From contig NVUY01000002.1 in NCBI GenBank assembly GCA_002733215.1, forward strand, positions 2,264-66,263: a stretch of 64,000 bases of DNA, written 5' to 3'. Origin of the DNA: Sulfurovum sp. Lineage in GTDB: Bacteria > Campylobacterota > Campylobacteria > Campylobacterales > Sulfurovaceae. Within the stretch, counting starts at the first letter, position 1. Each line of letters begins with the position of its first letter. Positions 29,880-30,201 of this stretch are shown here, one piece after another. The notes below the pieces were generated by a model that saw nothing but the letters and a program-made list of their open reading frames with translations, ran no database searches and was not told the origin of the DNA. Position numbers and translations under genes: made by a program.

Positions 29880-30122
29880 AGTGAAAAGCCAAACTTGTTG
29901 AGAAGCAGGGACGGAAAACCACGGGTCTTCCGATCTGAGTGGTGGGTCTGAATCACTGAATATTCTGTAAGTGCTTGTCTTGTGAGGGTTTATAAAGAAT
30001 TTGAAGTTAACCCGTAGGTTAATTGATGATTATTTATGAATGCTCACGAGGCAATGACTTGTAGAAGATTGGTGATTTCTGATCTACCACTCAGATCCAT
30101 AAGACAGCCGGGTTACCAACGT
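29880..30122 (+). promoter_or_regulatory. Candidate c-di-GMP-I (GEMM-I) riboswitch #2 with giant P3 extension
   Basis: AAAAGCCAAACTTGTT-GAGA-AGCAGGGACGGAAAACCA-CGG-G-TCTT-[166-nt hairpin insert]-AAGA-CAG-CCG-GGTTACC; TATGAT -10-like at 29850-29855. Confidence 0.88.
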
Positions 30123-30168
30123 AAGCCTTGACGCTTATGTCATCATTTTCAGGTGTCATACGAATTTC

Positions 30169-30186
30169 ACTCAGTGACGACTGAGT
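30169..30186 (+). promoter_or_regulatory. Hairpin just upstream of the Shine-Dalgarno sequence, possible expression platform
   Basis: ACTCAGT-gacg-ACTGAGT followed by ctAAAAGGTG and ATG at 30202. Confidence 0.5.
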
Positions 30187-30201
30187 CTAAAAGGTGTTAT
30201 T

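Follow-up and report, generated by a model that had tools for sequence, protein, structure and literature searches.

Upstream of an operon for a giant secreted-type protein and small pseudopilin-like proteins in Sulfurovum sp., the two halves of a c-di-GMP-I riboswitch aptamer are separated by a very long hairpin. Where did this hairpin come from, and has it become a part of the riboswitch or is it only carried along? We addressed both questions for a stretch of 64,000 nucleotides, hereafter the window, and for related genomes. The riboswitch probably gained a MITE-like hairpin once, in the loop of P3; the fold appears to have been held since, and the aptamer and, most likely, its own expression platform have been kept.

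A c-di-GMP-I aptamer split by a long hairpin

The aptamer occupies positions 29884-30119 and is split by a 166-nt hairpin on P3 (Table 1). The first-pass annotation had placed both half-cores and the hairpin at these coordinates and had described a c-di-GMP-I type aptamer with a giant P3 extension ahead of the large secreted-protein and pseudopilin operon, a description that holds. It had also predicted that automated calls would miss this member, and the Rfam scan of the window at gathering thresholds does skip the split aptamer.

Table 1. Features of the split riboswitch leader and of the operon downstream, in window coordinates.
Feature	Position	Strand	Basis and remarks
AT-rich promoter-like block (TATTTTATCTTAGATATGATATT)	29820-29862	+	conserved in leaders of the class across the genus
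Aptamer 5' half	29884-29931	+	specificity-position G before CC/GG, P2, GGGACGGAAAACC, P3 5' strand; RF03167 alignment
P2	29894-29909	+	GAGA (GNRA) loop 29900-29903; pair probabilities 0.93-1.0
166-nt hairpin in P3 terminal loop	29932-30097	+	MFE fold; absent from orthologous leaders
Apical stem-loop AGTTAACC-CGTA-GGTTAATT	30005-30024	+	most conserved part of the element family (alignment)
Aptamer 3' half	30098-30119	+	P3 3' strand AAGAC, AGCCGGGTTACC; RF03167 alignment
Hairpin A (ACGTAAGC...GCTTATGT)	30119-30140	+	directly 3' of the aptamer; conserved in aligned leaders, alifold
Hairpin B (CATC...GGTG/GATG)	30141-30155	+	conserved; alignment, alifold
Hairpin C (ACTCAG-tgacga-CTGAGT)	30169-30186	+	just 5' of the Shine-Dalgarno sequence; holds most of CACTCAG
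Shine-Dalgarno sequence AAAAGGTG	30189-30196	+	sequence; conserved in aligned leaders
1548-aa secreted-type protein	30202-34848	+	kept at this locus in relatives; main aligned segments 27-37% identical
Four small pseudopilin-like genes	34842-37540	+	N_methyl / prepilin motif in two

The RF03167 model (c-di-GMP-I-GGC) aligns end to end, positions 1-80, on 29879-30121, with all core blocks and about 172 nt inserted; its score of 43.6 bits (E = 7e-9) falls short of the gathering score of 59. RF01051, the model originally suggested for checking the assignment, captures the 5' side only (G000:C13:32141-32197, corresponding to window 29878-29934) at 33.7 bits against a cut-off of 35, and it is RF03167 that spans both halves. 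Orthologous aptamers that lack the insert exceed the cut-off, with scores of up to 69.8 bits, and a similar insert-free aptamer in genome G018 has 63.2 bits. The scores of the split aptamer are below the cut-offs because of the insert, whose cost fits the shortfall.

The ligand-core residues in the RF03167 alignment comprise the G before the CC/GG pairs, GGAAAA, TTACC and the GAGA loop on P2; we take these core residues to be the G at position 20, A47 and C92 in Vc2 numbering. Under the predicted fold the aptamer core is intact, and the split aptamer would be expected still to bind c-di-GMP. The AT-rich block, found in most of 13 aligned Sulfurovum leaders, is a putative promoter. Elsewhere in the window, two ordinary c-di-GMP-I riboswitches, at 16973-17047 (+) and 53110-53194 (-), were reported by the default scan, and the genome has 15 RF01051 matches above the cut-off, many for 2.6 Mb.

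The 341-nt leader has an MFE of -139.9 kcal/mol, compared with -82.5 +/- 5.4 in shuffled sequences (z = -10.6; none of 100 shuffles as good). The predicted MFE fold contains P2, P3 and the 166-nt insert as one continuous hairpin, and P2 and P3 form with equal pair probabilities whether or not this hairpin is included. The apical stem-loop adjoins a conserved TGA/TGA internal loop (TGA/CGA in the element family described below). In the c-di-GMP-I aptamer it is the P3 loop that tolerates change; a U1A protein-binding loop was placed there in published crystal constructs. As candidates for the identity of the hairpin, a known RNA family was rejected, Rfam giving only spurious microRNA matches below the cut-off, and so was a phage origin, the core pattern having no match in viral contigs. 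Further long hairpins lie near orthologous leaders (L018 2720-2831, L024 1984-2076) and were seen only as spurious microRNA matches.

Origin of the hairpin

A search of relatives returned one full-length orthologue of the hairpin-bearing leader, in genome G010. The corresponding locus of G018 matches query positions 1-60 and 228-340 with 2 nt between them. In G018, G023 and G009 the same riboswitch leader, operon order and gene neighbourhood are found with short P3 loops (e.g. GGGTCTT-ACC-AAGAC), and the hairpin is likewise missing from the other leaders of this class aligned across the genus, in which P3 is short too. Since the P3 loop is short in syntenic Sulfurovum leaders, the 166-nt hairpin is an insertion, and the leaders of G018, G023 and G009 are its empty orthologous sites. 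A strict-pattern search across the genus for riboswitches with a P3 insert of 150-180 nt gave true cases only in the window genome (G000) and G010. Of the relatives compared, G010 is the closest (an 806-aa neighbour is 90.8% identical, against 85-89%), and a single insertion before the two species separated is therefore enough to explain the pattern.

The hairpin belongs to a dispersed family of elements. Matches to its central 110-130 nt are scattered over many Sulfurovum genomes, most of them with 75-85% identity, and positions 29933-30096 align end to end with a 162-nt element (covariance-model match R1, 160 bits, positions 1-162). The copies are 162 nt long, start with CCCAAAT (or CCCGGAT) TATGCAATAG, end with the reverse complement and fold as one hairpin. 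They thus share the inverted-repeat ends, the dispersal in many copies and the small size (no more than 300 bp, too short for a transposase) of MITEs. Identical 5-bp flanks with the consensus WTTAW surround 45 of 58 copies, against 8.3 expected from shuffles, and no other flank length rose above chance in this set; the flank identity is a mark of transposition. The first-pass annotation had seen the giant P3 hairpin correctly and had missed both its membership in this MITE-like family and the empty site in relatives. We propose that a 162-nt palindromic element entered the terminal loop of P3 a single time, before the two species diverged; comparison shows both the insertion and the family.

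Of 78 genomes of the genus, 42 contain matches to a covariance model built from 37 copies, with up to 35 matches in one genome; of 70 Campylobacterales genera sampled, 15 have matches. Some copies are counted on both strands in each case. All 61 loci found with the core pattern are labelled Sulfurovum, Sulfurovaceae, Nitratifractor, Campylobacteraceae, Campylobacterota or Epsilonproteobacteria. The family has no match in Rfam.

Around the riboswitch copy itself a target duplication is not recognizable (TTCCG/CCATA in the window, TTGAA/TCATA in G010), and the outer stem of this copy differs in sequence from the ends of the family. Both features would follow from the age of the insertion, though neither proves it.

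The element resembles IS1380-family insertion sequences in its termini CCCAAAT.....AATAG and in its 5-bp duplications of the WTTAW type. One insertion sequence in G023, which codes for an IS1380-family transposase (NF033539, E 5e-100), has 17-bp inverted repeats CCCAAATCCGTAAATAG and 5-bp duplications TTAAA, ATCAT, TTTAT and ATTAT; its duplications are alike in type, and its repeats match the element ends at 12 of 17 positions. The element differs from the family in being too short for a transposase, and from the G023 copy in the remaining end positions. An IS1380 element of the G023 type was not found in G000 or G010. Judged by its ends, the element may be related to an IS1380-family insertion sequence, and this family is the best candidate for that of its mobiliser.

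Several variants accompany the typical copies. An extra 25-nt insertion (ACCCCAAGGGCATTTCC.CTGGGC) lies next to the apical loop, at one common position, in copies from G020 and G017 (L062, L063, L154), and L141, L152, L153 and L155 are short deletion derivatives of about 50-80 nt with the inverted ends kept. The ends CCCAAATCTCGAAATAG / CCCAAATCACGAAATAG occur on other repeats, often at contig ends (L054, L064, L073, L136-L140), which are candidates for related insertion sequences or a second subfamily. In G017 (L043 1346-1592, G017:C189), a copy with TTTAT duplications lies between another c-di-GMP-I aptamer and the start codon, a few bases 3' of that aptamer.

Compensatory changes occur in 39 of 63 pairs across the element copies. 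Mispairs are mostly of the G.T type, with 317 cells against 25 for A.C under the predicted pairing and 405 against 86 when the pairing is fixed by geometry. One strand is therefore held to its fold, and it is the strand present in the mRNA at the riboswitch. Master-copy inheritance could explain a part of this bias. All 40 copies tested for context are intergenic by a simple ORF call, and they occur in every orientation to their neighbours (>E> 10, <E< 13, <E> 11, >E< 6). A general selection of the element as a part of mRNAs was rejected on this absence of a preferred orientation, and co-orientation with genes does not explain the strand bias. Its cause may lie in the element's own life, in its RNA or single-stranded DNA.

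Retention of the hairpin

Between the window and G010 the hairpin is identical at 157 of 166 positions (94.6%). The 5' half of the aptamer is 92.3% identical, the 3' half has no mismatch (100%) and the AT-rich block is about 95% identical; the corresponding values are 76% for the platform, 61.5% for the upstream stretch, 72-88% for neighbouring DNA and 49% for fourfold sites of a neighbouring gene. Standard pairing is retained at each of the eight paired hairpin positions that changed, among them one double change (29932/30097), and eight random transitions all keep pairing in 1.9% of trials. The covariation that the first-pass annotation had proposed to look for is found at two levels, as pair-preserving changes between the orthologues and as strong covariation across the element family.

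Could the palindrome be a neutral passenger of a tolerant loop, which persists because loss is rare and leaves the riboswitch working as before? The free variation of the P3 loop in relatives and the undisturbed pairing of P2 and P3 are what such a passenger would show. We nevertheless regard this as a rather unlikely history, given that the hairpin is far better conserved than fourfold sites, that every change in it keeps pairing, and that no other element copy compared between the window genome and G010 occupies a shared position. The conservation of the hairpin beside drifting neutral sites suggests that it has been kept, beyond mere tolerance.

The identity could also reflect youth in place of selection, if promoter, aptamer and hairpin had recently been exchanged as a block between the two lineages. 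High identity does run as one block, approximately from 29800 to 30140. However, promoter and aptamer are conserved across the genus anyway, the block begins and ends at functional boundaries, and its surroundings are syntenic in gene order and have diverged, so that a recent exchange appears unlikely.

On these alignments, selection on the hairpin is the simplest reading of the data, drawn from one pairwise comparison since the combination occurs in two species only. We infer that a permissive loop received one insertion long ago and that selection for the hairpin fold then preserved it. The fold of the copy, and for the most part its sequence as well, would have been maintained since, making the copy a fixed part of the riboswitch.

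Expression platform and operon

Hairpin A is probably the anti-P1 arm of the expression platform, with a role in switching. The CATC(N)TTTT part of hairpin B could, as read by eye, alternatively pair with the Shine-Dalgarno sequence, and the switch presumably acts at the level of access to it. Expression would thus most likely still be under the platform of the class itself, that is, the P1/anti-P1 exchange at 30119-30140 and Shine-Dalgarno access.

A different platform had been proposed in the first pass, in which CACTCAG (30168-30174) would alternate between pairing with the P3 leg 29935-29941 and release. The 7-nt complementarity to the leg exists in the window. However, CACTCAG pairs with the adjacent CTGAGT in hairpin C, and this hairpin is present in leaders without the insertion (e.g. 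CACTCAGTGACGACTGAGT in G023), with matching changes in both arms; in G010 there is no such complementarity, with CTGGGTG in the leg and CGCTCGG in the downstream segment. The competition is thus unsupported, and we consider it highly improbable.

An insertion of this size might also have abolished function and left a constitutive leader. Such an outcome would agree with the Rfam scores under the gathering cut-offs and with the P1 partner, which is GTATTAC in relatives and GTATTTC in the window. It is hard to reconcile with aptamer halves that are 92-100% identical to those of G010 and have an intact core, with the kept fold and with the retained platform hairpins, and a dead riboswitch is accordingly improbable.

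The 1548-aa protein encoded by the first gene has no match in Pfam or NCBIfam, and the order of the small pseudopilin-like genes is conserved in G009, G010, G018 and G023. Three genes of the Uma2 family (putative restriction endonucleases) flank the operon, at 26503-27111 (-), 37699-38166 (-) and 38370-38906 (+). Group II intron matches cover 28461-29124 (-), with D1-D4 at 28874-29124 and D5-6 at 28461-28550, about 660 nt with no maturase reading frame.

Possible effects of the hairpin

Because the element folds back completely on itself, it would stack on P3 as one long hairpin and bring the two halves next to each other, and the aptamer would therefore have survived the insertion. The hairpin would most likely act directly in two ways: about 170 nt more would have to be transcribed before closure of the aptamer, which would be delayed, and the long RNA duplex could be cleaved by RNase III. 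We tentatively put forward a further possibility, that the domesticated element is a working module of the aptamer, for the timing of closure, for processing or as a protein-binding site, the operon then being under joint control of c-di-GMP and the element RNA.

Discussion

The leader shares with RF01051 and RF03167 riboswitches P2 with its GNRA loop, the GGGACGGAAA core, P3 and CCGGGTTACC, as well as a position 5' of surface or pilus genes and a platform next to the Shine-Dalgarno sequence; in contrast to them, a 166-nt hairpin that stems from a mobile element takes the place of the short loop at the end of its P3. Like the bacterial MITEs RUP, NEMIS, ERIC, BOX and QMITE (PMC10969869), the element is short and non-coding, has inverted-repeat ends and target duplications, resides at AT-rich intergenic sites and gives hairpin transcripts. 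It differs from them in that almost all of its 162 nt form one hairpin with conserved internal loops and a strand-specific fold (G.U rather than A.C).

A small mobile repeat has become part of a riboswitch leader in pneumococcus as well, where the trp operon has two T-box riboswitches with a BOX element between them and the compound leader is still expressed (PMC3049150). There the repeat separates two complete riboswitches, whereas here the element sits inside the loop of a single aptamer. Mobile-element hairpins have also been exapted into 5' regulators as mobile attenuators, in which a terminator from an insertion sequence is supplied 5' of a gene (PMC2965389); the hairpin described here instead extends a ligand-binding domain. 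The literature searched contained no description of a riboswitch aptamer interrupted by a mobile element, the BOX/T-box leader (PMC3049150) being the nearest case. The riboswitch class and the concept of MITEs are known; their combination and the 162-nt element family appear to be new.

The locus offers a before-and-after example of domain gain by a riboswitch, with empty syntenic sites, one insertion, and conservation with pair-keeping changes afterwards. Annotation by Rfam cut-offs overlooks such insert-bearing members. The element family is a tractable transposable hairpin, whose fold as RNA or as single-stranded DNA seems to be selected, and the palindromic nature of such mobile elements may be what lets a structured RNA survive their insertion.
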